Below are positions 8,241-31,161 of a stretch of 64,000 nucleotides of DNA, piece after piece. The translations under genes and the position numbers were made by a program. Each line of letters starts with the position of its first letter. Within the stretch, counting starts at the first letter, position 1. The stretch is from Caldisphaera lagunensis DSM 15908 (lineage in GTDB: Archaea; Thermoproteota; Thermoprotei_A; Sulfolobales; Acidilobaceae): positions 62,001 through 126,000 of the forward strand of contig NC_019791.1 in the NCBI RefSeq assembly GCF_000317795.1. Reading direction: 5' to 3'. The notes beneath the pieces were generated by a model. That model saw nothing but the letters and a program-made list of their open reading frames with translations. It was not told where the DNA came from and ran no database searches.

Positions 8241-8506
8241 TCCTCAAATTCCTCCTCAAGTGATATCCCTTCCATATCACCTGGCCTTGGTTCTTTGTGG
8301 TCAGGCACTTCGGCAAGCTTTTCTATATGCCTTCTCATTGCCTCCTTCAGAGTATTTTTATCAACAGGTTTTTTGGCGGGCTTAATCACTATTCCATCAT
8401 TGATCTCAACTATAACTTCATCTCCTTCATCTATGCCTACTGCCTCGCGGACTGCTTTAGGCAATATTATATAACCCTTTCTCCCAATCCTTAGCTTAAG
8501 AGTCAA
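8237..8506 (-). CDS. vapB: AbrB/SpoVT-type antitoxin of VapC
   Basis: A swapped-hairpin AbrB domain (IGRKGYIILPKAVREAVGI, then EGDEVIVEI) at the N-terminus is followed by an acidic tail that would wrap the toxin. The frame is open from TTG 8542, but I choose TTG 8506 (89 residues). It has GGTGA seven bases upstream (8514-8518), and the TATA box at 8551-8558 would start transcription near 8528, inside the longer frame. The protein probably also represses its own promoter, as VapB proteins commonly do. Confidence 0.85.
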   Translation of the reverse strand: MTLKLRIGRKGYIILPKAVREAVGIDEGDEVIVEINDGIVIKPAKKPVDKNTLKEAMRRHIEKLAEVPDHKEPRPGDMEGISLEEEFEE

Positions 8507-8550
8507 ACTAGGTTCACCCTCAGTATAACTTAGTTGTACCAATTCTTATA

Positions 8551-8558
8551 TATTTATA
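8551..8558 (-). promoter_or_regulatory. TATA box of vapBC
   Basis: TATAAATA on the minus strand, about 45 bases upstream of the preferred vapB start. It predicts transcription from about 8528 and supports the shorter antitoxin. Confidence 0.5.
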
Positions 8559-8608
8559 CTAGAAAAATCATCCTAAAATGTATTATTTATTTTGTTCATT
8601 CAATCCTC

Positions 8609-8645
8609 TTCAATCTTGCTGAGCTCTCTATAGCTCAGAATTGAA
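8609..8645. repeat. Imperfect inverted repeat in the insert
   Basis: A 7-bp inner stem (CTGAGCT at 8619-8625 with AGCTCAG at 8632-8638) and a 6-bp outer stem (TTCAAT at 8609-8614 with ATTGAA at 8640-8645) lie in the 420-base gene-free stretch between vapB and the right repeat. Apart from this hairpin I see no gene or known site in 8559-8964. Confidence 0.5.
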
Positions 8646-8964
8646 TTGATTTCTTTACTTATTATAAAAAAGATGATTCCCGATTATTCTAATTAAATCG
8701 CTATTAGGATAATAAAGAAGCTCTAAAAGATTCTTGTATAGAAAATCATGTTTTTAATCTTTTAAAAAATAACATATTAGCTTTTAATCTCTTATCTCAT
8801 TAATAACTCATGTTTATATTTTCTTTGCAAATTCATCAAAATATTAAGAGATATTCCAAAATATCAATCAAAGTATATCATAGAAACAAGATTTCTATAA
8901 GAATTGGGAAATAAAGGTGGCTAGATTAAATAAGAGTGTTTAAACATATCCAGAAGTAGCTCTC

Positions 8965-9016
8965 TAAAATAAACTAATTCACCTATATTATAAATTATTA
9001 GATCAGCCTTAACCAT
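8965..9016 (-). pseudogene. hutI 5' fragment (17 codons)
   Basis: Begins with the hutI ATG at 9016, overlapping the hutG stop by 8 bases, and encodes MVKADLIIYNIGELVYF before running into insert DNA. It shows that hutG and hutI were once an overlapping gene pair. Confidence 0.85.
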
Positions 9017-9169
9017 TTTTGTTCCCCAAATAGCTATTTATTGAATACAAGAGTAATTTAGCTGCTAATCTGCTAGTATTATTATTAATATCATATGGTG
9101 GAGAAACTTCAGTTGTATCAATACCTAAAATTTTAGAATTCCTTGTTATTTCATTTATTATTTTAATAG
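8965..9169. repeat. 205-bp direct repeat, right copy (hutI 5' end plus hutG 3' end)
   Basis: Matches 7471-7685 apart from a 10-base tandem insertion in the left copy. This copy forms the functional 3' end of hutG. Confidence 0.95.
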
Positions 9170-14939: not shown

Positions 14940-16475
14940 TTAATATTCATATTTCTTTCCAGCTTCATATCCCCAGTAATAGAACATCAAGGAAACTATG
15001 ATAAATAGTATATTATCATATGGGAATGGTATTTTGTTTAAATTGCTGCTTCCGAAATATGAAATTATCATTGTTGAAATTAAATATAATGGTAGCCAAC
15101 CTCCGGCAATGAAATCTCCCCTTTTAATTCCTACACTTTTATGATAATAAATGATGAACAGCAAACCTATGAGAACAGATATTCCAGCAATAAATACTGC
15201 ACTCCACCCTGACCAATAAATTAATAGACCTCCTATAACAAAAGCTATTGGAGAAAGTACCTTGAATGCAGGTATTCTGAATGGTCTATTCTCATTAGGA
15301 TACCTAGATCTAAATACAGCAACACTAATAGCTAAGGGTGCATATGAGAAAATGAAGGCATCTATCAGGACTGTAAATATTGTTTCAAAAGATGGTAAAA
15401 GAAGTAAATAAATTATTGATAATACAAATATTAATATGTTAGATATGTATGGTACACCTTCTTTATTTAATTTTGAAAAGATCTTAGGGAAGTATCTATC
15501 GTAAACTGATAAAGAATAGCCAACCCTAGATGCACCCCCGAAATAAATTAATGCATCTGTATATGAGGCAATAATTGTTCCTGCAATCATTAAAAATATA
15601 AATATAAGAAGCAAATTTGATGGAATCCTAACTGATGTTAAAGCAGTTATATAAGGATAAGGCAGGCTTATTAATGAAGACCATTGAGAGGGATTACTTA
15701 TTACTTTATCAGTAACCCCGAGAAATGCAATACTTTCTACCAAATAAATTATCATTGTTATTATTAAAGATGCTATAACAGCTTTAGGTATGAACTTCCC
15801 TGGATCTTTTACCTCTTCTGAATAATTTACTGGCTGTTTAAAACCTGCATATGCTAAAATTGTAGATGTTACCGCAGTAAAGAAACCAATAGCCCCCAGA
15901 TTAACAGGCATAAAACCTCCTAAAGACGGTGAGTTGAAGTTTTTAGCATTAAAGAATGCAAATAAAGCTAAAACAGGTATCATAACCATAATTATTTTTA
16001 AAACTGTTAAATAATTGTTTATATTTCCTATTAAACCAACATGTTTGTTGTTTATTAAATAAGTTATTAAGGCTATTACCGCGCTTACTATTATACCTAA
16101 AATCGTTAAAAAACCTGATTTATACAATGATGGGAAATAATATGCTAAATATTCAACGAAGGCTATTATAGAACTGGGGGTAACTAATGCATACCCTAAA
16201 AATGCTGACCACCCGTTTATTGATCCTGCTATTGGTCCATTGCTCTTAGCAGGATAGTAAGCGATGCCTCCAGCTCTTGGCCACATCGTTCCTAATTCTA
16301 TAACAACTAATGCAACTGGTACAATTAATAAAAAAGCAACAATCCAAGATAGTATTCCCGCAGGGCCGTCATAACCTAAAACATAAACAGGGATAAATGC
16401 AACTGCATCTCCAATAATGGCTCCTAAAGTCAAGAATAATACATGCCAAAATCCCAACTCCTTCCTAAAGCCCAT
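14940..16475 (-). CDS. APC-family amino-acid permease
   Basis: 511 residues, very hydrophobic, with 12 or more predicted membrane segments. The start (LGFWHVLFLTLGAIIGDAVAF) matches the APC-family first helix with its unwound GAIIG segment, and PGKFIPKAVIAS follows the cytoplasmic loop typical of these transporters. It probably imports an amino acid by cation symport. Histidine is an attractive guess because it converges with the hut genes, but substrate cannot be read from sequence. The ATG at 16475 has GGTGGT three bases upstream. Confidence 0.85.
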   Translation of the reverse strand: MGFRKELGFWHVLFLTLGAIIGDAVAFIPVYVLGYDGPAGILSWIVAFLLIVPVALVVIELGTMWPRAGGIAYYPAKSNGPIAGSINGWSAFLGYALVTPSSIIAFVEYLAYYFPSLYKSGFLTILGIIVSAVIALITYLINNKHVGLIGNINNYLTVLKIIMVMIPVLALFAFFNAKNFNSPSLGGFMPVNLGAIGFFTAVTSTILAYAGFKQPVNYSEEVKDPGKFIPKAVIASLIITMIIYLVESIAFLGVTDKVISNPSQWSSLISLPYPYITALTSVRIPSNLLLIFIFLMIAGTIIASYTDALIYFGGASRVGYSLSVYDRYFPKIFSKLNKEGVPYISNILIFVLSIIYLLLLPSFETIFTVLIDAFIFSYAPLAISVAVFRSRYPNENRPFRIPAFKVLSPIAFVIGGLLIYWSGWSAVFIAGISVLIGLLFIIYYHKSVGIKRGDFIAGGWLPLYLISTMIISYFGSSNLNKIPFPYDNILFIIVSLMFYYWGYEAGKKYEY

Positions 16476-17009
16476 GTGACCACCAAAAATACATATACTT
16501 ACAGGTTTATAAATTTTATTTTGTAATATTTATTTATAAAAAGAAATTATTAAATTCTCATATTTTTAGAATAATCAATAGAAATTTTATTAAGCAAATA
16601 GTCATTAAGTTTTATGGCATTTTTTATTATATATTCTTACTAATTTAAATACTTATATTGATTCTTTTGTCCTTCGTTACAACTTATTAAAAATTACAAT
16701 TTAATTTTAAGATATCAATCATGATTAAATTATTTGTATTATGATTAATGAATCTGTTTTTATTGTTATTAAAAATTTTAATAATAAAACTTGATATTTT
16801 TAATCTTATTAAAACTTTTTAAATATATTTAAATGGATTAACTAAAACATATATTGCGTTTATCAACCTATATCAACTATTAAAAAGCTTAGATCACTGA
16901 TAAGTTCTAATAGTTTCTCAACAAAAGAAACCCTTATCTTTGTAGAGGAGGTTAGTTAATCATAAGTTAATTTAGTAAAAATATATAAAAAATTTATATT
17001 AAACATATA
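16476..17009. other. Gene-free AT-rich region
   Basis: About 530 bases of very AT-rich sequence. I see no frame, tRNA-like fold or clear repeat. It should contain the permease promoter next to 16475. Confidence 0.5.
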
Positions 17010-17363
17010 TTAAATTTGATAATTTTCTATGTATTCCTTTAATGCAACCGCATTATTGTAATTTTTTTCCTTAGTTGAATATAAAAATGTTACATTTTTG
17101 TTATTCTTTATTATTTCTAATAATTTATTTACAATATCTTTTTTATTATTGAGTTCTTGATAATATCTATTTTTAAATTCTTCCCATTTGTTTGGATCAT
17201 GATGAAACCATTTCCTTAGCTCATTACTGGGTGCAATTTCTTTAAGCCAAAGATCAATCTTTTTTTCTTCTTTTTTAATACCTCTAGGCCATAATCTTTC
17301 AACCAATATTCTGAGACCATCCTCTTCATCAACTTTATCATAAACTCTCTTAAGCTTTATCAT
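17010..17363 (-). CDS. DUF488 (YeaO-like) family protein
   Basis: 117 residues, full length for the family. The hallmarks are RVYD near the N-terminus, [34 protein letters not shown] and a final [14 protein letters not shown] segment. The function of the family is not established; the conserved Arg/Trp/His residues suggest a small enzyme or nucleic-acid-associated role. It is a single-gene unit with an ATG at 17363. Confidence 0.85.
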
Positions 17364-17600
17364 AATAATCCCAATTAAAAAATGTATCGTATAATTAATA
17401 AATTTTGTTACATAAATTCTTTTATTAATTTAATACGAAAGTCATTTAATAAAAATAATGTGGAAGTTGTATAAGCAATTAAAATCAAACAAAACCTATT
17501 TGTAATGAAATCCCTACTTAGGCTTCCTTTAGAAACGTGAAAAATCAAAGACAATTATGTAATCTTGGTTTTTAAATATAAATAAAATTTCTTATAAAAT

Positions 17601-17609
17601 TTTTAAATA
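17601..17609 (+). promoter_or_regulatory. TATA box of the MscS-like gene
   Basis: TTTTAAATA about 30 bases upstream of the GGTGA ribosome-binding site (17630-17634) of the MscS-like gene. Confidence 0.45.
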
Positions 17610-17638
17610 CAAATATTTATAATAAATATGGTGAAAAT

Positions 17639-18271
17639 ATGGTGAGCTCTACATCTACGAGTACAAATACTAAAGGCAGAACAGTAGGAGCAGGAAGAGC
17701 GATAGCGTTAACGATAGTTTACATAGTCATTTATGTTATAGTAAGTGCAATAACTAAGTATATAATAGAATCCTTACTACCATCATTTCACATATTCGCT
17801 GTGAAATATGAAGTATATGTACAAATACTACTAGCGTTGGCATTTGGATATCTAATCGTTAACGGATTTTCCTCAATATTCTATTATTCACTACTGTCGA
17901 AATATGGTCATCCAACAGCCGCCGCAATAAGAAACGTTGTAAGAATTATTGGAATTGGGGCATTAGCAGCTAGTATAGCAGGGGCTGTAGCTGGTGGCGC
18001 TGCAGGTGTTGCTTTAGGAGGATTTATTGGCATAGTAATAGGCTTTGCAACGCAACAGGTTCTAGGCCAAGCAGTTTCAGGTCTTTTCCTACTAATAGCT
18101 AGGCCTTTTAAAATAAATGACAATGTTAATATCGTTGGCGAAGATGGTATTGTGGAGGATGTCGCTACACTATTTACTACGGTAGTTAAAGCTGATGGTA
18201 CAAAAGTCTTAGTACCTAATAACTTGATAATAGGAAATAAAATTTATCTAAAGCAGCAACAAAAGAGTTGA
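17639..18271 (+). CDS. Small mechanosensitive channel, MscS family
   Basis: 210 residues with about four hydrophobic segments. The third, Gly/Ala-rich helix (residues ~105-140, with repeated AxxxG steps) is the pore-lining helix of MscS. It runs into the family's conserved link GFATQQVLGQAVSGLFLLIA and the beta domain (RPFKINDNV...EDGIVEDV...VPNNLI). The protein stops right after the beta domain and lacks the C-terminal cage of E. coli MscS. It would release solutes during osmotic down-shock. The first 20 residues are Ser/Thr-rich and cytoplasmic or external. Confidence 0.9.
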   Translation: MVSSTSTSTNTKGRTVGAGRAIALTIVYIVIYVIVSAITKYIIESLLPSFHIFAVKYEVYVQILLALAFGYLIVNGFSSIFYYSLLSKYGHPTAAAIRNVVRIIGIGALAASIAGAVAGGAAGVALGGFIGIVIGFATQQVLGQAVSGLFLLIARPFKINDNVNIVGEDGIVEDVATLFTTVVKADGTKVLVPNNLIIGNKIYLKQQQKS

Positions 18272-18300
18272 TAGATCGATTCATTAAATGTTAATGGATC

Positions 18301-18308
18301 TTTTTTTT
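18301..18308 (+). terminator. Oligo-T terminator after the MscS-like gene
   Basis: Eight T residues 30 bases past the stop, preceded by a weak stem (CATT/AATG around 18281-18296). Confidence 0.5.
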
Positions 18309-18810
18309 AAAAACTTTATATGATACAAAATTTATACTTAAATAGGCTTTCAATAGAAGTAAAATATAATTATGTAAAAATGAAGTCTCATTGTCTTAGA
18401 TTTTATCCTAATAACCAAAGCTGATAACTCTTGGTATTTGACAAGAAGTTATATTGTTAAGATTGGCAAGTCGAGACAAATATGGATTGATATGTCTTTC
18501 TAAGAAATAAAGTACCGTTGGGTTAAATATGGTCATGGTTTTCTTTGTTGCATTGAATTGAATCTATAAACTGTGATAGCTAAGTGCACCCTTAGTAAAA
18601 GGATTAGCTTTTACTATAATGATACCTGTTAATCTCTCTATTTTCAAGCGTGTAACTAAAGAAGTGATTTCATGTATAAGCCTAGGAAAGATTCTTGAGA
18701 TAAGGAAATTCTAAATTTATCTAGATTTTTTCATTGAAACAAAGCCAAAGAATTCCTATAATCAATACATTGATGGATTAAGATGAATTCCTTAAAGCAT
18801 GCTTCTATAT
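18309..18810. other. Gene-free region, possibly decayed coding sequence
   Basis: About 500 bases between convergent genes. The plus strand shows short stretches of coding-like codons broken by many stops, for example around 18590-18700. I cannot assign them to a family; they may be a worn insertion-sequence remnant or chance. Confidence 0.35.
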
Positions 18811-19113
18811 CTAGGTAAGTTCTTGGAATATTCTATGAAATGGTCTACCTTCTAAAATTGATGCCCCATACCCAGTTGTATCTCTAAATTCATTGCTAGA
18901 AACGAATTTTCTAAATGAATCTAAACTTTCCCACTCCGAATATATTAAATATTCTCTAGGTTCATCGACTCTTTTATATAATTTTGCATCAATGAACCCT
19001 ATCCTCATTTCTTTTAATTTTTTAACCATTTCAAAAAATATGCTTTCAAATTCTTTTTCATGATCTTCTTTAACTTTGTAATATAAACCTACGTTTACCG
19101 TTCTTTTAATCAT
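18811..19113 (-). CDS. ABM-domain (dimeric alpha-beta barrel) protein
   Basis: 100 residues with the ferredoxin-like pattern of the antibiotic-biosynthesis-monooxygenase superfamily: a first strand (VNVGLYYKVKEDH), a helix (EKEFESIFFEMVKKL), REYLIYSEWESLDSFRKFVSS in the middle, and a final helix. The 'W-x-S-x-x-x-F' stretch matches this group, which includes cofactor-free oxygenases and IsdG-type heme-degrading enzymes; the axial His of IsdG cannot be assigned by eye. In the reconstructed ancestral order it followed the small Cys-rich gene and the heme-oxygenase-like gene now at 26.9-28.1 kb. Confidence 0.75.
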   Translation of the reverse strand: MIKRTVNVGLYYKVKEDHEKEFESIFFEMVKKLKEMRIGFIDAKLYKRVDEPREYLIYSEWESLDSFRKFVSSNEFRDTTGYGASILEGRPFHRIFQELT

Positions 19114-19195
19114 TGCCCTTCCCAGAGAATCTTAAAATTGCAAAAATATATATTTTTACATTAAATCAAATTATTGATTATCAAATTAAGCATTT

Positions 19196-19217
19196 TTGTT
19201 AACTCCCCGGTTAACAA
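19196..19217. repeat. Palindrome TTGTTAAC-N6-GTTAACAA (left copy)
   Basis: Perfect 8-bp arms around TCCCCG. The same element sits at 26874-26895, and a variant (spacer CGGGGG) in aroA at 46047-46068. It lies 12 bases past the stop of the gene fragment, so it could act as a terminator hairpin or a protein-binding or recombination site. Confidence 0.75.
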
Positions 19218-19228
19218 TGATAATGTTT

Positions 19229-19500
19229 TTAATCAATTTCTTTAAATTCAGTTATATCTCCATCATCTGATAACTTAATATAAAACTTATGAGAATTTTC
19301 CCCATTTTTTACCTCAATATTTCTACCTCTATAAAAATTTCCTCTTAACTCAATGTAGTCTATTTTATTTAAATTAAACCTCTTTTTCGCCTCATTTATT
19401 ATGTTTATAAATGCCTTTGCACAATTATTACAACAGAAAAATAATTTTTCTCCTTCAACTGTTTCATAATAGTCTCCCCATGTACCTCCACATAATGCAC
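19229..19500 (-). pseudogene. Truncated copy of the Cys-rich (TRASH-like) gene
   Basis: Carries the same codons as 26907-27178 but lacks the first 49 bases of the gene, including the start and the first CxxC cysteines. It is a product of the 305-bp duplication and is probably not translated. Confidence 0.85.
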
Positions 19501-19617
19501 TTAGGTAGAGAATTTTTAGAGAAAAGGCTTTGTTATAAGGTTGTTATAAAGCTATAATAAACTAAACAAATAAAAAATTTATAAATTTCAGACCTGCTAA
19601 CTGAAATAGGAACAAAA

Positions 19618-20823
19618 ATGAATAGCAATTCTTTAATTTTAAGTGGCATAAAAGTTTTAGATTTCACAAGAGCAATGTCAGGTCCTTTTGCAACAATGGT
19701 ATTAGGAGATTTGGGTGCCGATATTATTAAGGTTGAACCACCTGAAGGTGATGAATCTAGGTCTTGGAAGCCACCGGATATTAATGGATTATCAAGCTAT
19801 TTTATAAGTATAAACAGAAACAAAAGAAGCATTGTAGTAGATCTCAAAAATGAAAAAGGGAAAGAGATTATACATAAAATAGCCAAAAAAGTTGATGTAG
19901 TTATCGAAAACTTTAAGCCTGGAACTGCGAACAAATTAGGTATTGATTATAAAACAATTAGCTCAATTAATCCATCAATTATTTATGTAAGCTTATCAGC
20001 TTATGGACAAACTGGTCCTTGGAAGGATAAACCAGGATATGATCTAACCGTCATGGCTACTAGTGGACTCTTAAGTCTTAATGGAGAAAAAGATAGGCCA
20101 CCTGTTAAATATGGTGTACCTATAGTTGATATCACATCAGGATTATATGCTGTCATTTCAATACTTTCAGCTCTTTATTATAGAGAGAAAACTGGAATTG
20201 GACAATATATAGACTTATCGATGTATGATGCGCAATTGCAAATATTATCCCACCAGGCACTTAGTTACTTAACAACAGGAAAGAATCCTGAAAGGTTGGG
20301 ATCAGCTCATCCTAACATAGCACCTTATCAAGTATTCAAGGCAAAAGATGGCTATGTTGTGATTGCAGTAGGTAATGATAATCAATGGAAAAGGATGTGC
20401 GAAGTATTAAATATGAATTATCTTCTAAATGATCCAAGATTTAAAACAAATCCTGATAGAGTTAGAAATAGAGATGCGCTAGTTTTAGAGATGGAAAAGG
20501 TATTAGAAAACATTAGCGTTAAGGAAATTATTGATAAACTAGAATCAGTTGGAGTACCAGTAGCGCCTGTTAATTCGGTTGCAGAGGCACTTAATAATGA
20601 ACAAACTAAGTCTAGAGAAATGGTTGTGGAGGTAGAACATAAAAAGATAGGAAAAATAAAGGTACCAGGTACACCATTTAAGTTTACTATTACTCCAGGA
20701 AAAATAAGATACCCCCCGCCATTGCTTGGAGAAAATACAACTGAAATATTAAAAGAATTCGGATTTTCTGATGGAGAAATAAATGATCTACTCAAAAATA
20801 AAGTAATATATGAAAATAAGTGA
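19618..20823 (+). CDS. Class III CoA-transferase (CaiB/BaiF family)
   Basis: 401 residues, full length. The family opening (GIKVLDFTRAMSGPFATMVL followed by GADIIKVEPP) is intact. The catalytic Asp lies in KDKPGYDLT, and the GTGIGQ-type loop appears as KTGIGQYIDLSMYDAQ. The enzyme moves CoA from an acyl-CoA to a free carboxylic acid; the acid is unknown. The next gene, an amidase, starts at or just after its stop. A hydratase and a transporter follow on the other strand, suggesting catabolism of an imported carboxylate or amide. The start ATG lies about 120 bases after the left 305-bp repeat, at the edge of the inserted block. Confidence 0.9.
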   Translation: MNSNSLILSGIKVLDFTRAMSGPFATMVLGDLGADIIKVEPPEGDESRSWKPPDINGLSSYFISINRNKRSIVVDLKNEKGKEIIHKIAKKVDVVIENFKPGTANKLGIDYKTISSINPSIIYVSLSAYGQTGPWKDKPGYDLTVMATSGLLSLNGEKDRPPVKYGVPIVDITSGLYAVISILSALYYREKTGIGQYIDLSMYDAQLQILSHQALSYLTTGKNPERLGSAHPNIAPYQVFKAKDGYVVIAVGNDNQWKRMCEVLNMNYLLNDPRFKTNPDRVRNRDALVLEMEKVLENISVKEIIDKLESVGVPVAPVNSVAEALNNEQTKSREMVVEVEHKKIGKIKVPGTPFKFTITPGKIRYPPPLLGENTTEILKEFGFSDGEINDLLKNKVIYENK

Positions 20824-20830
20824 TTCCAAT

Positions 20831-22012
20831 ATGGAAGAAATCAGCGTTAATGAGGCGTTAGAAAAGTCATATAAATTTTCAGATTATAATGCAGTTGTGA
20901 CAATAAATGAAGATGCTGAAAAGGAAAAGGATAAGAAACCAATATTAATAAAGGACATAATATATACAAAAGGGATTAAAACAACAATGGGTTCGAAGGT
21001 ATTTTTTAATTATATACCAAGGGAAGACGCTAGGGTTATTACTTTATTAAAAAGAAATGGATATACAATAGTTGGAAAAACAAATACTCATGAATTTGCA
21101 TCAGGAGTAACAAATACATCATCAGTTTTTGGGCCATCAAGAAATCCAATAAATAAAGAACTTATAACAGGAGGAAGCAGTGGAGGAAGTGCTGCAGCAG
21201 TAAAATTAAAGATCACAGATGTCGCTTTGGGTACGGATACTGCTGGATCAATAAGGATTCCTGCATCTTTATGCGGTGTTATAGGTTTTAGACCAACACA
21301 TGGATTGATAAGCGTTAAAGGTGTTTTCCCATTAGCACCCACATTTGATGACGTTGGAATAATGTCAAATAATGTTGAAAAATTGAAAGAAGTATTTTAT
21401 ATATTAAGTGAAAAGAAAATTAAGAAATATGACATAAATAATTTAAAAAAAGTTAAATTTGCTTTACCTGAAGGTTTTTATTCTGCAAATGAATCAATAG
21501 AAAATAAATTCAAAGATTTTATATCAAATTTAGAATATGAAATTATTGATATTAATAATTTAAAGAGTGCAATAAACGCTTTTGTTACAATAAGATATTC
21601 AGAAGCATCATGGATACACGAAAAAATGAGAGATAAATTTGATCAATATTTCCCTGATGTGAGAAGGTTGATTGAAAAGGGATTTAATTATTATGCATTT
21701 GAATACCTTAACTCGTTAAAAACTGCAAAAATTGTAAGAAGAAGGCTATTAATGATATTAAAAAAATATGACTTCATAATATTGCCAACTACTCCCATTA
21801 TTGCTCCAAAAATAGAAGATGTTATTGGTAAAGAAGATGGTGAAATAAGAAGCATATTAACAAGTAATACATGGTTATCATCTTTAGTAGGATTCCCTTC
21901 AATATCATTACCTCTACTTAATATTAATGGATATCCTGCTGGAGTTCAATTAATTGGGAAACCATATGAAGACGATAAATTGCTAGAAGTATCAAAATTA
22001 TTGCAAAAATAA
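20831..22012 (+). CDS. Amidase (amidase-signature family)
   Basis: About 393 residues, shorter than most GatA-like amidases (450-490). The Ser-cisSer-Lys triad is present: Lys in ILIKDIIY, cis-Ser and linker in TGGSSGGSAAAV, and nucleophile Ser in GTDTAGSIRIPASLCG. It hydrolyses an amide to acid and ammonia. It lacks gatB/gatC neighbours, so a tRNA-amidotransferase role is unlikely. The frame reaches back to ATG 20810 inside the CoA-transferase gene, but ATG 20831 has AGTGAT before it. An amidase feeding acid to the upstream CoA-transferase is a reasonable inference. Confidence 0.85.
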   Translation: MEEISVNEALEKSYKFSDYNAVVTINEDAEKEKDKKPILIKDIIYTKGIKTTMGSKVFFNYIPREDARVITLLKRNGYTIVGKTNTHEFASGVTNTSSVFGPSRNPINKELITGGSSGGSAAAVKLKITDVALGTDTAGSIRIPASLCGVIGFRPTHGLISVKGVFPLAPTFDDVGIMSNNVEKLKEVFYILSEKKIKKYDINNLKKVKFALPEGFYSANESIENKFKDFISNLEYEIIDINNLKSAINAFVTIRYSEASWIHEKMRDKFDQYFPDVRRLIEKGFNYYAFEYLNSLKTAKIVRRRLLMILKKYDFIILPTTPIIAPKIEDVIGKEDGEIRSILTSNTWLSSLVGFPSISLPLLNINGYPAGVQLIGKPYEDDKLLEVSKLLQK

Positions 22013-22018
22013 AAAAAT

Positions 22019-22771
22019 TTATTTCTTTACGAATTCTTCAACTTTCTTTTTTACTTCTTCCCTAGGAATTATTGAAGACATTACGGAAAAGCCTAGATCT
22101 AAAAGATCATCAACCTTTTTTCTTGCCATAAGTTGCTTAATTTGTCTAACCGCTATTTTATCGTTAGAAGAAATTTTTCTTGCGACCTCTATTACTTTGG
22201 CTTTAAGAGAGTTAATATCATCTACAACTCCATTTATTAAACCATATTTAAATGCTTCTTCTGCAGTTATCATATCTCCAGTTAAGGCTAGATATGATAA
22301 AAGCTTTGAGTTCACAAATAAATGCCCAAGAGTTGAAGAATATGGAGGTATCATACCCCATTTTACTGCAGGTAACCCAATTTTTGCTGTTTTAACTGCA
22401 TATGCAATATCTGATGTATGTATTAATTCAAATCCAGCTCCTAGTGCATATCCGTTTATAGCTGCTATCACAGGTAGTTTACAATTCAAAGCCCCCCTGA
22501 TAACACCTCCCAAACCTTCATACATTAATTTCCATGCTTTGTTAATATCAGATGTCGCATCTAATACATCATTTAAATCAGTTCCTCCTGAGAAGAATTT
22601 TTCACCTGCACCAATAATTGCTATAGCAGATATATCATTTCTCTCACACTGCTTACATATTGCTTCTTTAAGTTCTTTTAAAGTATCATAATTTAAAGAA
22701 TTAGCTTTATTTTCTCTATCGATTATAATCCATGACAAAACATCTTCATCTACTGTTTTAATATACATCAT
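22019..22771 (-). CDS. Enoyl-CoA hydratase/isomerase family protein
   Basis: 250 residues, crotonase fold. The two oxyanion-hole segments are visible: KFFSGGTDLND and NGYALGAGFEL. The first catalytic Glu (GAGFEL) is present, but the position of the second (usually Glu in a GxPEixLG stretch) reads GLPAVKWGM, an Ala. The enzyme may therefore not be a classical hydratase; related crotonases with one Glu act as isomerases, hydrolases or lyases. It converges with the amidase gene with only six bases between the stops. Confidence 0.85.
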   Translation of the reverse strand: MMYIKTVDEDVLSWIIIDRENKANSLNYDTLKELKEAICKQCERNDISAIAIIGAGEKFFSGGTDLNDVLDATSDINKAWKLMYEGLGGVIRGALNCKLPVIAAINGYALGAGFELIHTSDIAYAVKTAKIGLPAVKWGMIPPYSSTLGHLFVNSKLLSYLALTGDMITAEEAFKYGLINGVVDDINSLKAKVIEVARKISSNDKIAVRQIKQLMARKKVDDLLDLGFSVMSSIIPREEVKKKVEEFVKK

Positions 22772-22838
22772 ATTTCACCTTTAAATTAAGTATGCAAAAA
22801 AGTAAAAAAACATTTATGATAAGGAATATTAATGAAAA

Positions 22839-24329
22839 TCATTTTTTGGGAAAAGCTAGGCTGAAGAGAACTATTATTATGTTTATAAACAATCCTATGA
22901 AACCTATATAAATATCATGATAAAGGGTTGTTGATATCACTTTAAAGTGATTAGCATATAGTGTTGTATAAATGGAAACAATTGTACCAATCCATATACC
23001 AGCTATAGCAAATTCTTTTCTTATGAATTTGATAAATGGATGAATAACTGCTATTGGCAAGAACTGCAATATTATTTCAGCACCTATCAGATAGAACTGA
23101 AATGCATAGGTCATAGGAATAACTTGGAGTAAAGCTAATGATAATAGAGTAAAGCCAACTGCAGACCATTTTGCTATTTGTGTTTGTCCTTTGCCAGAGA
23201 TATTGGGCTTAATCATCCTTGATAAGTCTCTTCCCACCATGTTTCCAACAGTTACGGCCATTAATGCAGCCGGAACTAAACCGCCTACAAATATGCCTAA
23301 TAATGCTATACCTGTCAACCATGAAGGAACTAAAGATACTAAGAGACCAGGTATTACATATAACCCTCTTGATGAGGCAGGGAATTGAAAAACAAAGCTA
23401 TGAACTGAAGGTATTTTATAGACAGCTATAGCCATAATATCAGCTAGAGCTAGAGGAATTGCATAAAGAATTGTTAATGAGTAACCCTTTAACAATCTTT
23501 CTTCATTTTGTGCTGCCCATGAACCTGTAACATTGTGTGGCCACAAATATGCAGAAAATACCACCCCAAGCATGCTCGTACTGAATGCTAAAGCTTGTAC
23601 ACTTGGTAATGCTACATATTTTGATGGCATTCCAGAAAATATATTATTAAATCCATGAGTATAATATAGGGTTGCTACTATAACCGTTAATAACCCTAGC
23701 CATACTAAAATATCTTTAAATACAGCTCCTAAAGAAACTCCTCTAACTCCGCTTGTAAATGAAAATGCTGCTATTACAACGAATGCAATAAATAAAATCA
23801 AAACACTATATTCCTTAAATGCTGCAGATACTGGTGAGATACCGAAGGATTCTAAGAACATTGTTCCTAATATGGCATATAGACCATCTACTTGTAATGC
23901 TATATAGAATAGAGTTGCAAATATACCTAAAACTACGACAGAGAGTGATAGCAAAATACTGTTAAATTCCCCTCTTGCATAATCAGCTATTGTTATATAT
24001 CCTTTATTCTTAGATAAACGCCAAAGTCTGGGCATGAATACGCTTGCCCATGTAAATACCATTGCCTGATATGCTACCCCAAAAAACCCATATGCTCCCA
24101 ATGCAAATACAGCTGATGGTATTGCTAATATAGAATATGCAGTAAACCAGTCTGCACCCTGAAGGAAGAATTGAAATGCGGTCCCTAATCTTCTTCCCCC
24201 AAGCCCCCATTCATGAAGTTGGGTCAAATCTGCCCTTCTAAATCTGCTGCCTAAAAAGCCTACAATTGCAAAGGCTATAAATAAAACAATAAATGTTATA
24301 AGCATTTGAAGACCAGATGCTGTTATCAT
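22839..24329 (-). CDS. Sodium:solute symporter family (SSS) transporter
   Basis: 496 residues with about 13 membrane helices and an outside N-terminus. The family features are the Gly-rich loop after helix 1 (HEWGLGGRRLGTAFQFFLQG), AYSILAIPSA, and the central TSGVRGVSLGAVFKD. It likely imports a carboxylate or similar solute with Na+ or H+. Its start overlaps the stop of the upstream DUF3311 gene by four bases; the pair is a known two-gene arrangement in prokaryotes. It is probably the uptake system for the substrate handled by the neighbouring CoA-transferase, amidase and hydratase. Confidence 0.88.
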   Translation of the reverse strand: MITASGLQMLITFIVLFIAFAIVGFLGSRFRRADLTQLHEWGLGGRRLGTAFQFFLQGADWFTAYSILAIPSAVFALGAYGFFGVAYQAMVFTWASVFMPRLWRLSKNKGYITIADYARGEFNSILLSLSVVVLGIFATLFYIALQVDGLYAILGTMFLESFGISPVSAAFKEYSVLILFIAFVVIAAFSFTSGVRGVSLGAVFKDILVWLGLLTVIVATLYYTHGFNNIFSGMPSKYVALPSVQALAFSTSMLGVVFSAYLWPHNVTGSWAAQNEERLLKGYSLTILYAIPLALADIMAIAVYKIPSVHSFVFQFPASSRGLYVIPGLLVSLVPSWLTGIALLGIFVGGLVPAALMAVTVGNMVGRDLSRMIKPNISGKGQTQIAKWSAVGFTLLSLALLQVIPMTYAFQFYLIGAEIILQFLPIAVIHPFIKFIRKEFAIAGIWIGTIVSIYTTLYANHFKVISTTLYHDIYIGFIGLFINIIIVLFSLAFPKK

Positions 24330-24535
24330 AAAGCTTCACCCTTTATTCTTAATTTAACTATTGCATAAAGAAGAATTGATGAAATAAGATACCATATTAT
24401 TATCCACCAATAAAAGAATGGAAGCCCTGCTAATTCAGGTTTAACAAAATTATACCAAGGCCAGGCATAAACCAAAAAAATTAATAGAGTAACAAATGCC
24501 ACCAAGCCCACAATCGTACTAGATCTAGACGACAT
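24326..24535 (-). CDS. Small membrane protein, DUF3311 type
   Basis: 69 residues with two membrane segments (about 10-28 and 40-61). The Trp-Pro-Trp-Tyr and Pro-Phe-Phe-Tyr-Trp-Trp motifs match the small partner protein often encoded just before SSS transporters. It probably acts as an accessory subunit. Confidence 0.75.
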   Translation of the reverse strand: MSSRSSTIVGLVAFVTLLIFLVYAWPWYNFVKPELAGLPFFYWWIIIWYLISSILLYAIVKLRIKGEAL

Positions 24536-24762
24536 TTGTATACCCTCTTATTGTACACTACTATATGTAAAATTTTACACAAGTATTTAAATCTTATTTC
24601 AATAAAAATTGTTTGATGATTCGTCATATATATAACAAGGTAATATTTTCTAATTATAAAAGAATTAAATCTTATGATACAATAAACCTGATTATTAACA
24701 TAACCTGATCCAAACTAATTTTATCTTCTATTAATAATTAGATAATAGCTTAATCATCACAT

Positions 24763-25846
24763 CTAACCTCCTCCCCGCCCTAAAGGGTGAGGATTCCATT
24801 GAGGTCTTGGGTGTTACTCTCCTTTATGGGAGCTACTCTATTATGATCAACAAAGAAAGATAAAGGCTTTTTCACTTCTTTTACCATTTTTCCTATTGCT
24901 TTTTTCATAATGTTTATTGCACCATTCAAGTCTGAATGTAGTTTATGTCCCATCTTGCATGTTATTATTCCTTGGGGCTTTCTCTCAACTTCAACATTAT
25001 GAAAAGCACATACTCTAGAAGTATTGTATTCAATGACCTTTACAACCTTAATGCCATAATCTTGAGCTTTCAACAGTAAGGCTTTGAAAAGTTTAGAATA
25101 AGACCACATATTTGATGTGAACTTGTTACCCTTATCTTGTGCAATGTCATACGGATAACCCACGATGATTGTTAATACTCCTATCTCATACGAAGTCTTC
25201 ATTAGATGAGATGCTAAATTCCTATATAAATGAATAAGTCTTCTGTATAATTTGCTGAATAATCTATTTTCGTCATAATGAATCTCCAGCCTACCTTGTT
25301 TTCCAAACCATCTCACTTTACCAGCAAACTGAATCTCTAAATTAAAGTCCTTTAACACTAGCTTGTAATTTTCTATATCTACGATGTATCAATCTTGTCT
25401 AACTACTAGGATTAATTTTCTCTTTCCTTCTCTTTTCCAGTATCCAGGTGGTTTCGCACTATCTTTCAGGAGGGAAAAGAATGATGACCATGCTTCGTTA
25501 TTCTTTTGTATAACTGCTTGCGCGTTCGTTTTAAGTATCCTTTTATATTTTTTATAGTATTTATTCCATGTTCCTTTGAAGTCTACCTTACCAAGAATTG
25601 TTGCCTCCTCTCATAATTGATCTCATTAAATAAAGAGGAAGATGCATCTGCACACCTTCTCATTCCTTTCTTGTGAACCATTTGGTAGAAGACGAACTGA
25701 TACAGTACGTGTAATACCCACATCTAGTATTGTGAGAGTATTTCATCTCTCACTCCACATCTTAGTAGATTGACCAGACATGAATACCACAAATAAATTT
25801 TGAAAAGAAACTTAAAAAAACTTTACCCCTCCTTGAAAAGGCGAGG
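24763..25846 (-). mobile_element. Decayed IS605/IS1341-type element
   Basis: Both ends carry hairpins of the kind found at IS200/IS605 termini: around 24770-24792 (CCCT/AGGG inside CCTC/GAGG) and 25828-25846 (CCTCCTT-GAA-AAGG-C-GAGG). Between them lies a broken tnpB on the minus strand and no tnpA. The 24.77-kb hairpin at the tnpB 3' end is where the guide (omega) RNA scaffold normally ends. The exact boundaries are estimates. Confidence 0.7.
24780..25720 (-). pseudogene. tnpB: TnpB nuclease pseudogene
   Basis: The C-terminal frame (24780-25358) has the zinc-ribbon core (EYNTSRVCAFH, then ITCKMGH) and the last RuvC Asp (SDLNGAINI). Upstream, the minus strand still reads recognisable N-terminal TnpB segments in shifted frames (VRLLPNGSQER, then SSSLFNEINYERRQQF, then KTNAQAVIQKNNEAWSSFF), with at least two frameshifts and a TGA where Arg is expected near 25390. 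From the run LEIHYDENRLFSKL it also appears that the block holding the first RuvC Asp has been deleted. It cannot be an active nuclease. Confidence 0.85.
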
Positions 25847-26149
25847 TTTGTTGTTCTTTTTATCATTAAGTCGATGCTACATTAGAACCAATAGGTATTA
25901 TTTACTAGTTTATTAATCAGAAAATTCTTAAATCGGTAATAATATTAGTTATGCAGGTTTTATATAAATCTGTTTGTTGATTTGTATAAAATATTCTATA
26001 TAATTCTCATAATTGTATGGACTTATTACGAATGAAAATAAAAATTATTTATTATAAGATAAACTGGTAAATTATTTATAAAGAATTCTATATAATTAAT
26101 ATATAAATATTAATTTAAGTTTTGGAAAATTTATTAAGTTGGTGGAAAA
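25847..26149. other. Gene-free AT-rich region
   Basis: About 300 bases with no coding frame seen. It should hold the promoter of the small ORF and methyltransferase gene; TATATAAATA near 26100-26107 is a candidate TATA box. Confidence 0.4.
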
Positions 26150-26266
26150 ATGATATATCATAAAATTAATTCAGCGGAAATTAAAGAAAAACTTAACAAG
26201 GAATTATTATCTTTGACTAATAAATTTATCAATAATTTACTTTATATAAAATTTATCATTTTATGA
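26150..26266 (+). CDS. Possible 38-residue small protein upstream of the methyltransferase
   Basis: ATG 26150 has a well-placed ribosome-binding site (GGTGG at 26141-26145). It opens a 38-codon frame (MIYHKINSAEIKEKLN..., Lys/Asn/Leu-rich, probably helical) ending in TGA at 26264-26266. The stop overlaps the GAGGTGACC ribosome-binding site of the next gene, which suggests translational coupling. No family is recognised; a regulatory leader is possible. Confidence 0.4.
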   Translation: MIYHKINSAEIKEKLNKELLSLTNKFINNLLYIKFIIL

Positions 26267-26276
26267 GGTGACCGTT

Positions 26277-26828
26277 ATGTTAGGAGATCCTGAGGATAGA
26301 CATTTCTCACCATTTATATTAGATAATCCTATTAGAAAAATTATAGATAATCCAAGAAAAATTATAAAGAGGTATATTAAGGAAGGCGATTATGTTGCAG
26401 ATATTGGAGCAGGTCCAGGAGTTTATACTATAGAATTAGCTAAGTTAGTTGGAGAAAAAGGTAAGGTATATGCAAGTGATTCCGATCCCAAAATGGTTCA
26501 AGTTTTAAAGAAAAAAATAAATAAATTGAATTTAAAAAACGTTATTGTTGAATTAGCATCAGCAGATAATATAAAATTTATAGAATCTAATACGATCGAC
26601 TTTGCTTTTTCTAATGGGGTTTTATGTTGTATGGTAAATCATAAGGGGGCCATTGAAGAAATTAATAGAATATTAAAAGAGAAAGGTATTGCATTTATTT
26701 CTGTAGAGAAAATATCTAAAGGTCCAACAGCTATTCCAAAAAATGAATGGAGGGATCTTATAAATAAGTTTAATATAATAGAAGAAAGAGAAGGTTTGTT
26801 TAACAGGTATGCTATTATTTCAAAATAA
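26277..26828 (+). CDS. Class I SAM-dependent methyltransferase
   Basis: About 183 residues with the Rossmann-type SAM-binding motif I (VADIGAGPGVYTIELA), an acidic residue at the end of strand 2 (VYASDSDP), and motif post-II/IV (FAFSNGVLCCM). The length and layout match UbiE-like small-molecule methyltransferases; the substrate is unknown. The frame opens at GTG 26268, but that GTG is inside the ribosome-binding site GAGGTGACC, so ATG 26277 is the better start. It ends about 50 bases before the right 305-bp repeat and so closes the bracketed block. Confidence 0.85.
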   Translation: MLGDPEDRHFSPFILDNPIRKIIDNPRKIIKRYIKEGDYVADIGAGPGVYTIELAKLVGEKGKVYASDSDPKMVQVLKKKINKLNLKNVIVELASADNIKFIESNTIDFAFSNGVLCCMVNHKGAIEEINRILKEKGIAFISVEKISKGPTAIPKNEWRDLINKFNIIEEREGLFNRYAIISK

Positions 26829-26873
26829 ATTAAAGAGTTCTTGCTTGCATTATTTTGTCAAATTAATTTTTAA

Positions 26874-26895
26874 TTGTTAACTCCCCGGTTAACAA
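26874..26895. repeat. Palindrome TTGTTAAC-N6-GTTAACAA (right copy)
   Basis: Same element as at 19196. With its flanks (26871-26898) it matches 46044-46071 in aroA on the opposite strand at 27 of 28 bases. Confidence 0.8.
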
Positions 26896-27178
26896 TGATA
26901 ATGTTCTTAATCAATTTCTTTAAATTCAGTTATATCTCCATCATCTGATAACTTAATATAAAACTTATGAGAATTTTCCCCATTTTTTACCTCAATATTT
27001 CTACCTCTATAAAAATTTCCTCTTAACTCAATGTAGTCTATTTTGTTTAAATTAAACCTCTTTTTCGCCTCATTTATTATGTTTATAAATGCCTTTGCAC
27101 AAATATTACAACAGAAAAATAATTTTTCTCCTTCAACTGTTTCATAATAGTCTCCCCATGTACCTCCACATAATGCAC
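26874..27178. repeat. 305-bp direct repeat, right copy
   Basis: Gap-free match to 19196-19500 with three differences noted by eye. Here it forms the 3' part of the intact Cys-rich gene. Confidence 0.95.
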
Positions 27179-27227
27179 AACCTGTTTCTTTTGTACCAGC
27201 TTCTTTACCATTAACTATAACTTTCAC
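26907..27227 (-). CDS. Small Cys-rich metal-binding protein (TRASH/Ta0938-like)
   Basis: 106 residues. Two cysteine pairs near the N-terminus (CALC, then CCNIC 20-odd residues later) and a following helix ([15 protein letters not shown]) suggest a single zinc or iron site like TRASH-type metal-binding domains. It also recalls the small Thermoplasma Ta0938 family; both are impressions. The C-terminal half is predicted beta. The start is GTG 27227 with GGTGAT upstream, overlapping the end of the upstream gene by 17 bases, so the two are co-translated. A truncated copy lies at 19229-19500. Confidence 0.6.
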
Positions 27228-28134
27228 TTCTTATCACCTCAAATAATTCAGGTTCAAATTCCATGGCCCTTTGAATTCTTGCATACAAATATTTGTCTAA
27301 GGCATCCCAAGATTTTAATAATGTTACTTTTATGTTAATCTTTGTTAAATAATCCTGAGAATAATTATCAATAAGTCTTAAAGCTTCTCCAGCATGGCCT
27401 TCATCAGCTTCATAACCTTCTCTTAAAAAGTTCTTTACATGTTCATTATATTGATTTGATGATAAGATATTTGGGTTAAAATAATGTATTTTTGCCCCAT
27501 ATTTCAAATTTGTTTTATCAGCAGCTAGTTCCAAGCTATGCATTGCAGCCATTGTTTCTACCCATGGTCTTGTTTCTGCTATATTTCTCCACGTCGATAT
27601 CGCTTCTTTTGTTGAAGGCAATGGTTCATATGAAAGTATCTTCTCCCTCGAAAGTCCTAGGCTTTCACCCATTTTTATTAGTAATTCATAATGGGAAGGC
27701 TTTCCATTATATCCTATGTATTCTGTTGCTATGTTTTCTAGTTCATATCTAATCACATCTTCTTTATCTGTATTATAAATTATCTTAGATAAAACCTTAA
27801 CCCAATTTTGCAAGAAATGTCTGTGTTCAATTACATATCCTAATAGTAATCCTCTAGTAGGATTTTGCATTAATATCATAAAAAGGTGAGGATTTTTTCC
27901 ATAAAATTTTTCTATAAACCTATATCTAATCCATTCAGGAAGTGATTTTGGTTCATCAAAATAATTCCTTAACCTATTGGATAATTCTTCCTTGCTTAAT
28001 TTATTTTTGCTTACAAATCTATTTAACCACATTATGTGATCTGGATCACTCTTTTCATTTGCCATAAAATAAATATGATCAGATATTTCATCCCACGAAC
28101 GGCTTTCGATCCTACAAATTGGGCATATAGGCAT
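27211..28134 (-). CDS. Heme-oxygenase-like (TenA/PqqC/CADD-type) protein with N-terminal zinc-finger-like motif
   Basis: 307 residues. The N-terminus has CPIC (Cys4, Cys7) followed by His20 and His33, a CxxC...H...H pattern that could bind zinc. The rest is helical, with carboxylate/His pairs spaced as in heme-oxygenase-like diiron oxidases: EHRHF near 104-108, an Asn-Ile-Ala-Thr-Glu-Tyr helix near 134-139 with His148, METMAAMH-like [11 protein letters not shown] near 192-202, and DEGHAGEA near 244-251. This group includes TenA, PqqC and CADD; some members bind two metal ions and oxidise small molecules. The start ATG 28134 is preceded by a TTGGGATA-type site. The substrate is unknown. Confidence 0.7.
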
Positions 28135-28259
28135 GCTTATCCCAATAAAGCTATGGATACAAAATTTTTAAATACTAGTATTTACATTAAAAATTAAATA
28201 AAATTTTTATTAGAATAAATATAAAAGGATAAAAAATAATTAATATTATTGGGGATAAT

Positions 28260-28856
28260 ATGAATAAAAGAACAATAAAAAAATTAATTATTTTATTTTC
28301 AATATTGGCCATCCTATCTTCATGGGTTACTATTTTTACTTCTATTTCATTTAACCCATGGTTTAAGATTAATAAAAATGCATTTAGCGATCTAGGAGGT
28401 GGTTCTTATATAAATGGTCACCCACCTCCAATGTTTCCTTTTATTTATAATGTTGGTATGATTATAACAGGTTCACTAATATTCATTTTTAGCATTTTTA
28501 TAGCTTTTTATTCAAGAAACGTGATAGAGGCAATAGGCGGTTCATATTTTTCTTTATCTGGAATATTTCTCATTTTAATAGGAATTTATCATGAAGGCAC
28601 ATATCCTCATATTTTCGTTTCATTATGGTTTTTTATTTTAGCATCTATTTCCATCTTTATCCTAGGAATTTCTCTTATTAAAATTTATAGAAATAGGGGT
28701 CTATTTTTGACAATATTTCCCATATTGGCATGGATATTTTCATATTTTATTCCATTCTCCTCTACTGCTGAAACCGAACTATATGGTATCTTGGCTATAG
28801 AAATTTCTGTGTTATTGTATATATCAACATTATGGATTAAATTAATTTTAAAATAA
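28260..28856 (+). CDS. DUF998 family membrane protein
   Basis: 198 residues with about six membrane segments. The family's extracellular loop motif is visible early: NPWFKINKNAFSDLGGG. The function of DUF998 is not known. The GGGGATA before ATG 28260 is a good ribosome-binding site. It is followed 60 bases later by the peroxiredoxin gene on the same strand. Confidence 0.8.
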   Translation: MNKRTIKKLIILFSILAILSSWVTIFTSISFNPWFKINKNAFSDLGGGSYINGHPPPMFPFIYNVGMIITGSLIFIFSIFIAFYSRNVIEAIGGSYFSLSGIFLILIGIYHEGTYPHIFVSLWFFILASISIFILGISLIKIYRNRGLFLTIFPILAWIFSYFIPFSSTAETELYGILAIEISVLLYISTLWIKLILK

Positions 28857-28917
28857 AATATAAAAATATATATTTTTTCTTATTATTTTCCATAGATTAA
28901 ATAAATTGGTGATAATA

Positions 28918-29406
28918 ATGGCAGAATTGAATTTGGGAGAAAATTTTCTTGATTTCTCTCTGTATAATACAGATTTAAAAGAAGTAAAACTAAGCGATTA
29001 CATAAATCAAGGAAAGCCTGTTGTTTTATTATTTTTCCCAGGAGCTTTTACAAGTGTTTGTACAAAAGAGTTATGTACATTTAGGGATAAAATGTCATTG
29101 TTAAATAAGGCAAATGCTGTTGTATTTGGAATCAGTGTTGATAGTCCTTTCTCTTTAGCTAAATTTAAGGCTGAGAATAAATTAAACTTCGATTTGTTAA
29201 GCGATTATAATAGGGAAGTCATAAAATTATACAATGTTTATCATGAGGATTTAAGTATGATAGGATTACCTAAATTAAAGGAAGCATCAAAAAGGGCTGT
29301 ATTTATTTTCGATAAAAAAGGAAAACTTGCATATAAATGGGTTTCAGATCATCCAGGTAAAGAGCCAGATTATGATAAGGTTGTAGAAATTGTAAATAGC
29401 TTATAA
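28918..29406 (+). CDS. Peroxiredoxin (AhpC/TSA, BCP-like)
   Basis: 162 residues from ATG 28918, which has GGTGAT five bases upstream (the frame extends to TTG 28906). The peroxidatic Cys is in the motif FFPGAFTSVCTKELCTF, and a second Cys four residues later (ELC) could serve as resolving partner, as in BCP-type enzymes. It reduces peroxides in the cytoplasm using a thioredoxin-like donor. A T-rich run (29410-29429) after the stop is a likely terminator. Confidence 0.92.
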   Translation: MAELNLGENFLDFSLYNTDLKEVKLSDYINQGKPVVLLFFPGAFTSVCTKELCTFRDKMSLLNKANAVVFGISVDSPFSLAKFKAENKLNFDLLSDYNREVIKLYNVYHEDLSMIGLPKLKEASKRAVFIFDKKGKLAYKWVSDHPGKEPDYDKVVEIVNSL

Positions 29407-29409
29407 CAA

Positions 29410-29429
29410 ACTCTTTTATTTCTTTTTTA
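29410..29429 (+). terminator. T-rich terminator after the peroxiredoxin gene
   Basis: Two T tracts (T4 and T6) within 20 bases after the stop. Confidence 0.45.
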
Positions 29430-29613
29430 GATCTTGCGGGAACATAAAGTAATTAATTATAAAAATGAATTTTTTAAAAAAAAAGAAAATTTTTAAAATA
29501 ATTTTATGATGTTTATCACATAATATTTAATCATAATCATTTGATATATAAATATGTAATATTGAGTAAAGTATTTATTTCTTTGGATACAATAATATTT
29601 TAAGGTGGGATTG

Positions 29614-31107
29614 TTGTACACCTTTGAGTATATATTGAGAAGAGCATCCCAATTATTTCCTGATCAAGAAATTATAGATGTTAATGGAAGGAAAACATAT
29701 AAAGAAACATATAAAGAAACTTTGAATTTAATAACATATTTAAAGTCATTAGGAATAAAAAGAGGAGACGTTGTATCTATTATTGGCTTAAACAACATAA
29801 AATTTTTTGAGTTAATTTATGCGATAACTACAATAGGGGGTATCGCTTATCCAATAAATATTAGATTGCCCCCAGATCAATTGATATATACTTTAAATAA
29901 ATCAAGTTCTAGGTATTTCATATATGAAAATATATTTAAAGAATTAGCTGATTTGGTTAAATCAAAAATAAATATTGAGACAGTATCTTTTAATGAATTA
30001 AAGTTTAATCTTGGAGAGGGGAAACCGGTAAGCAATAAAAATGATGATGCAATAATTTTATTTACAAGCGGTACTACTGGATTACCAAAAGCTGTTCTAT
30101 ATAATCAAGAAAAAATGATAAACGGTGCATTATCTATATTAAATCAATTAACGTATTATAATGCGCCAGCCAAACTAAGCCAAAACGATGTTATGTTTCC
30201 ACAGATACCAATTTATCATATATTATCTTGGGGATCTTTAATTATAGCTCCATTGATTGGAGCTAAATTGATATATGGAGGAAAATTCGATCCCAAAATC
30301 GCAATAGAAATTATTGAGAAAGAAAATGTAACCTGGATAAGCGTTGTTCCAACAATGATGCAAATGCTTTTAGATACCGGATTAAGTAAAAGAGGACTAA
30401 AGGTTTTGATAGGTGGTAGTCCAATACCAGATGGATTAGTAAAGAAAATGAAAGACCTTGATATTCATTTTTCTGCAATCTATGGAGGAACTGATATGTT
30501 AGCTGCCTCAATAACAATAGAAACAAAACATGTAAAGAATGGTATATTAGATTATCATAAAGTCACTCATCCCGTTCCTATGGCCGAATTTTATATAGAT
30601 TCTAAATCACAAAATCAACCGGGAGAAATATGGTTTAGAGCTCCATGGATGCCTAATGGATATTACAATGACAAAGAAAAAACTATGGAATCTTTTACGC
30701 CTGATGGCTGGTTTAAAACAGGGGATATTGGATATATAGCAGAAGATGGAGGGTTAATTGTATTAGATAGGGTAAAGGATATAATAAAGAGCGGAGGAGA
30801 ATGGATACCATCAAGCGTTTTGGAAGCATCTATTTCGGAATTACCATTTATTTCTTTAGTTGCTGTCATTGCGAAAAAGGATGAAAAGTGGGGAGAAAGG
30901 CCAATAGCTGTTGTAAAATTATCTAAAGAAACTCAAAATGCAAAAGAGTTAATATATGAACATTTAAGAAAATATGTAAATGAAGGTAAATTGAGCAAAT
31001 TCTGGTTGCCAGATGATATTATTATAGTAAATGATATACCATTAACTGGAACAGGTAAAATAGATAAGAAGAATTTAAAGGAAATCCTAAAAAATTATAA
31101 TAAATGA
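29614..31107 (+). CDS. AMP-forming acyl-CoA synthetase
   Basis: About 497 residues. All adenylation motifs are present: P-loop LFTSGTTGLPKA, YGGTDM (A5 position), GWFKTGDIGYI (A7), DRVKDIIKSGGEWI (A8) and the catalytic Lys in TGTGKIDKK (A10). It activates a carboxylic acid (fatty, branched or aryl acid; not resolvable) to acyl-CoA. The frame opens at GTG 29605, which is within GGTGG; TTG 29614 has the right spacing. The acyl-CoA dehydrogenase that follows after ~55 bases probably uses its product. Confidence 0.92.
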   Translation: MYTFEYILRRASQLFPDQEIIDVNGRKTYKETYKETLNLITYLKSLGIKRGDVVSIIGLNNIKFFELIYAITTIGGIAYPINIRLPPDQLIYTLNKSSSRYFIYENIFKELADLVKSKINIETVSFNELKFNLGEGKPVSNKNDDAIILFTSGTTGLPKAVLYNQEKMINGALSILNQLTYYNAPAKLSQNDVMFPQIPIYHILSWGSLIIAPLIGAKLIYGGKFDPKIAIEIIEKENVTWISVVPTMMQMLLDTGLSKRGLKVLIGGSPIPDGLVKKMKDLDIHFSAIYGGTDMLAASITIETKHVKNGILDYHKVTHPVPMAEFYIDSKSQNQPGEIWFRAPWMPNGYYNDKEKTMESFTPDGWFKTGDIGYIAEDGGLIVLDRVKDIIKSGGEWIPSSVLEASISELPFISLVAVIAKKDEKWGERPIAVVKLSKETQNAKELIYEHLRKYVNEGKLSKFWLPDDIIIVNDIPLTGTGKIDKKNLKEILKNYNK

Positions 31108-31161
31108 TTCATTGAAAAGATAATTAAGCCAGAAATATAATAGTAAAAATGGTGTGGGAAT

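Follow-up and report, generated by a model that had tools for sequence, protein, structure and literature searches.

A 305-bp direct repeat around a gained metabolic block in Caldisphaera lagunensis as the possible footprint of a single insertion at a dispersed palindrome

We propose that a single past insertion left behind the 305-bp direct repeat that brackets a metabolic gene block in Caldisphaera lagunensis DSM 15908, that the repeat is not the end of an excisable unit, and that the insertion took place by templated repair at a short palindrome. We give this reading a probability of about one half. The repeat lies in a 64-kb stretch of the genome, referred to below as the window.

Results

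The two copies of the repeat are located at 19196..19500 and 26874..27178 (both minus strand) and align without gaps, with 302 of 305 bases identical. The mismatches fall at 19228, 19367 and 19425 in the coordinates of the left copy. The first-pass annotation had measured this alignment correctly at about 99%. The pair is the longest direct repeat of the window, and no third copy was found in a search of the whole 1,546,846-bp single-contig genome, in which 16 weaker matches cover just the first 22-54 bases of the repeat, i.e. a palindrome at its left end. The left copy consists of this palindrome and the 3' part of a Ta0938-family gene, and lacks the start and the first 16-17 codons of that gene. 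The right copy is part of the intact gene (26907..27227, minus strand; PF11494, E = 1e-43). The alignment and the Pfam match thereby bear out the earlier description of a truncated left copy and an intact right one. The intact gene overlaps the gene of a TenA/haem-oxygenase-like protein with an N-terminal zinc finger (27211..28134, minus strand; PF03070, PF16293) in a pair found conserved at 11 archaeal loci. In the plasmid collection, the Ta0938 protein had no relative. The divergence between the copies is 1%, compared with approximately 18% between C. lagunensis and its nearest relative in the comparison, and the 305-bp copy is young.

What did the locus look like before the block arrived? 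We compared it with the corresponding loci of two Caldisphaera genomes, G002 (the nearest, with ~82% DNA identity; contig C58, L009/L078) and the more distant G004 (L010/L084); the genome of the window is denoted G000. The window contains, in order, ABM, the left repeat copy, CoA-transferase, amidase, hydratase, symporter, IS605 remnant, methyltransferase (MT), Ta0938, TenA, DUF998, peroxiredoxin and AMP-ligase. The order in G002 is ABM, MT, Ta0938, TenA, DUF998, peroxiredoxin, enoyl-CoA hydratase and AMP-ligase. In G004, ABM adjoins an inverted peroxiredoxin-DUF998-TenA-Ta0938 segment. The block is absent at the locus in both relatives, which agrees with the earlier proposal of a lineage-specific gain. 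The ABM-domain gene (18811..19113, minus strand; PF03992, E = 5e-15), which is the native left neighbour, has an ortholog with 80% amino acid identity in G002 directly beside MT. The G002 ortholog of MT (26268..26828, plus strand; PF13847), with 82% amino acid identity, lies between ABM and Ta0938. This order shows that MT is native and not cargo and that the insertion lies between ABM and MT. The gained DNA accordingly extends from 19501 to approximately 26026-26090 within the ABM-MT interval, with the left copy at its edge, and the two repeat copies occupy two ancestral places, the left one in the ABM-MT gap and the right one at Ta0938. Synteny with G002 points to the right copy as the native source of the repeat. 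Because of this synteny, and because two of the three differences between the copies are derived in the left copy relative to G002 (one in the right), the left copy is the secondary one.

The gained block (19501..26060, with the right boundary uncertain within 26026-26090) has no counterpart between ABM and MT in G002. It contains genes for a family III CoA-transferase (19618..20823, plus strand; PF02515, E = 8e-136), an amidase (20810..22012, plus strand; PF01425, E = 9e-80), an enoyl-CoA hydratase/isomerase (22019..22771, minus strand; PF00378, E = 4e-35) and a sodium/solute symporter (22839..24329, minus strand). The symporter has no Pfam match and is MctP-like by NCBIfam (NF046076, E = 1e-87, below the cut-off of that model). 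The last element is an IS605-type TnpB remnant (24762..25868, minus strand; PF07282/PF01385) with an internal deletion: two segments are 95% and 89% identical to a copy at G000:317.5-318.9 kb, with approximately 0.3 kb absent between them. Of the cargo originally listed, the CoA-transferase, amidase, crotonase, transporter and dead IS605 element are thus present, and only the methyltransferase has to be removed, given the gene order of G002.

The left edge of the repeat is sharply defined. The repeat begins exactly on the 22-bp palindrome TTGTTAACYCCCCRGTTAACAA, and its 99% identity opens on the first base of that palindrome. G002 carries one palindrome between ABM and MT (m1), exactly 82 bp from the ABM start, and another beside Ta0938 (m2). 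In the window, the left-edge palindrome (19196..19217, plus strand) is likewise exactly 82 bp from the ABM start, at the ancestral m1 position, and m2 (26874..26895, plus strand) lies 11 bp past the stop codon of Ta0938. The m1 and m2 sites of G002 are direct repeats ~0.83 kb apart that share 34 bp with one mismatch, a near-identity that should be sufficient for pairing. The left palindrome of the window has the core of m2 (TCCCCG); in G002, the core has the opposite orientation at m1 and m2 alike. The left-hand junction of the block therefore lies on the old palindrome m1, but with the sequence of its twin m2. At the right junction, homology to G002 is clear from ~26090 and can be extended to 26026, the right arm of m1. 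This places the right boundary 0-51 bp to the right of the m1 position (26026-26090) by a weak alignment in AT-rich DNA, whose score is equalled by 4-7% of random AT-rich sequences. The block borders are located at 19500 and ~26026-26090.

The Pfam scan of the larger block proteins revealed no integrase, no tRNA is encoded in 15000-32000, and no Rfam RNA matched at the locus. The block shares with integrase-type archaeal islands the location of gained genes between direct repeats but differs from them in lacking an integrase, a tRNA or another att-like target. An integrase-type genomic island was thus rejected. Two flanking IS copies or IS ends were not found at the block borders, and a composite IS605 transposon is likewise not supported: the only IS component is the single internal TnpB remnant and the borders have no IS ends.

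The window contains two further insertions. The first-pass annotation had noted an insertion with a long duplication at vapBC, and this holds: a PIN-domain/MazE-like pair is surrounded by a second repeat (7465-7662 and 8959-9156), so that across 7465-9156 about 200 bp of the junction between hutI and the arginase-family gene is duplicated and both neighbour genes are intact. The same junction is uninterrupted in G004. The vapBC case is a true target duplication, with a layout unlike that of the 305-bp repeat. The third insertion, of 1.4 kb (~17435-18819), is absent at this place in G002 and G004 and has no long repeat. An open reading frame in it looks like an MscS channel from its sequence. 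A sample of a further 400 kb of the genome provided no clear case of a comparable repeat-bounded block; the only finds were a 101-bp pair 29 kb apart and a short tandem-like repeat of 135 bp with its copies 129 bp apart. The vapBC layout, the repeat-free third insertion and this sample do not support the suggestion that such duplications reflect a recurring way of gaining DNA in the lineage. As a separate observation, an 85-bp piece of the 3' end of an archaeal ATPase gene is copied ~1.6 kb upstream (L117:261-345 and 1864-1948; G000:1018018-1019705); this ATPase gene lies beside DUF488 and a palindrome in G002 and at another place in G000.

The palindrome at the left edge belongs to a dispersed family. 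The 22-bp sequence TTGTTAACTCCCCGGTTAACAA occurs 30 times in the genome at three or fewer mismatches, compared with no occurrence of the pattern read backwards. Its general form is TTGTTAAC[YCCCCR]GTTAACAA, which is found in the window at 19196, 26874 and 46047, at approximately 27 further places in G000, and at L068-L103 in G002 and G004. Counted in the degenerate form, there are 23 copies in G000, 18 in G002 and 20 in G004. The remaining two genomes of the genus have none, and four other genomes of the family have one or two copies each. Among 38 testable intergenic cases, 15 lie within 10 bp of a stop codon (6.5 expected) and 21 within 25 bp (11 expected); neither count was reached in any of 1000 random placements. 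As RNA, the palindrome is predicted by folding to form an 11-bp hairpin (-12.5 kcal/mol, z -7). At several orthologous sites, the core points in opposite directions in different species. Some copies lie within coding sequence, at positions that are orthologous among G000, G002 and G004, in the genes of EPSP synthase (46047-46068), POR gamma (G000:548695) and aldehyde dehydrogenase (G000:229844). A pure 3'-end role therefore does not explain these in-gene copies.

Repetitive extragenic elements of the REP type, including the GTAG/CGTC families (PMC3733652; see also PMC12306157), resemble the Caldisphaera palindrome in being short, dispersed, hairpin-forming and close to gene 3' ends. However, the GTAG/CGTC tag is missing from the Caldisphaera palindrome, which numbers only about 20-30 copies. 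A complete RAYT/Y1 transposase was not found in the carrier genomes, which contain a fragment in G000 and none in G002 or G004. Three Y1 transposase matches occur in G001, a genome without the palindrome. A RAYT-mobilised REP was thus rejected, as was a viral signature, since viral contigs contain no exact match to the palindrome.

The palindrome was also considered as a hot spot of synteny breakpoints. The raw counts, which are not independent, suggested a link, with 19 of 88 block ends against 4.8 expected under a uniform null and 41 of 80 against 55 of 218 adjacencies. After stratification by gap length and gene orientation, the signal was gone (20 observed, 17.4 expected, p = 0.12), and the hot-spot reading of the breakpoints was rejected. 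It is unlikely that the palindrome acts in Caldisphaera as a hot spot of recombination or breakage at which DNA is repeatedly taken up or reshuffled, with the block as one such event.

Discussion

The ancestral locus, as kept in G002, read ABM, m1, MT, m2, Ta0938 and TenA. Today, ABM is joined at the m1 position to a copy of m2 and the 3' part of Ta0938; this left copy is followed by ~6.5 kb of gained DNA and then by MT and the original m2-Ta0938. We propose that a break occurred at or beside m1 and that the ABM-side end invaded the near-identical m2, ~0.83 kb away. Synthesis would then have copied 305 bp into Ta0938 before quitting the template. The metabolic block, as a captured fragment, would next have been joined to the copied end, and the other end of the block would have been joined just to the right of m1, upstream of MT. 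A flip of the core would have to be added, since G002 has the opposite core orientation at both sites. We infer the break and the copying steps from the end product.

Repair at m1 via m2 would account for a repeat that starts at the shared palindrome and ends without homology, and a single step would explain why one edge has a palindrome, why the other has no homology and where MT lies. The locus has the copied local sequence and the short homology at one junction that are expected of templated repair, as the left edge falls exactly on the shared 22-bp palindrome. On the other side, G002 homology resumes 0-51 bp to the right of m1 in the weak AT-rich alignment, and this junction may lie at the proposed broken site. 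Templated insertion by SDSA or by microhomology-mediated break-induced replication leaves scars with locally copied sequence. The Caldisphaera locus may be a scar of this template-switching kind, which it resembles in having a local copy at the junction, one boundary in short homology and the other without it, and foreign DNA captured between the two.

A two-step route would lead to the identical end product. The block may have entered, whether through repair or as a circle integrated by a single crossover, together with a ~1.1-kb duplication of MT, m2 and the 3' part of Ta0938, and the left MT may later have been lost by recombination between m1 and m2, leaving the 305 bp of the left copy. 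The direct orientation, 0.83-kb spacing and 34-bp near-identity of m1 and m2 in G002 are consistent with such a loss, and the nearby vapBC pair indicates that insertions with longer duplications occur here. However, this route calls for two events and for a 1.1-kb duplication that is not otherwise observed, and it does not predict that the right edge of the block falls within ~50 bp of the m1 position. We favour one-step repair, for which we hold about even odds, and regard the two-step route as a possible but more doubtful explanation. The layout shares with Campbell-type single-crossover integration the direct repeats of hundreds of bases that flank gained DNA. Unlike in such integration, the repeats flank no single ancestral site, and the native MT lies inside them.

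The original interpretation was that a target duplication brackets the block and that recombination between the repeats would excise it precisely. Recombination is physically plausible because the repeats are direct, long and 99% identical. However, the copies occupy two different ancestral places and do not derive from one split site, so neither a target duplication of one site nor an excisable cassette is borne out. With MT between the repeats, a junction of 19195 with 26874 would not recreate the ancestral locus. MT would be lost together with the block and ABM would come to adjoin Ta0938, an arrangement that no relative seen possesses and that G002 contradicts. We consider this interpretation very improbable.

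Similarly little weight, and if anything slightly less, falls on the reading that the block is ancestral at the locus and was lost independently in G002 and G004. Among 229 genomes of the class, the symporter has an ortholog of 85% identity in G004 and otherwise a best match of 49%, which favours that reading. However, the ortholog lies in another context beside HyuAB, in a look-alike cluster on contig C11 (L113) with the order HyuB, HyuA, symporter, hydratase, CoA-transferase and amidase, whose CoA-transferase, amidase and hydratase are just 43-51% related to those of the block. Both relatives lack the block at the locus, and the best match of the CoA-transferase lies in another family of the order (61%, compared with ~44% in its own family). 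The best identity of the amidase within the class is 49-54%. The enoyl-CoA hydratase is 69% identical to the one elsewhere in the G002 locus and 51% identical to that of the G004 cluster. A move of the block from the HyuAB locus at 598 kb was rejected because the symporter alone of the block genes has an ortholog in the G004 cluster. The block genes were found together in their present form in no genome examined, and a patchy gain is the likeliest origin of the block. An assembly artefact, of which repeats are a classic source, is scarcely credible, as no sign of one was found, the genome is one closed contig (1.55 Mb, 99.7% complete), and there are three mismatches between the copies and four distinct flanks around them.

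In the overall reading, the repeat is real and was correctly measured, but excision, single-site duplication and recurrence do not survive comparison with the G002 gene order and the other insertions. The insertion is of an ordinary kind, and its layout is instructive. Cargo genes can lie between the copies of a long, near-perfect direct repeat without forming a mobile or excisable unit, and the gene order of one relative, G002, reverses the reading of a repeat-bracketed block. In addition, the locus brings to light a dispersed palindrome at gene 3' ends that is restricted to Caldisphaera.
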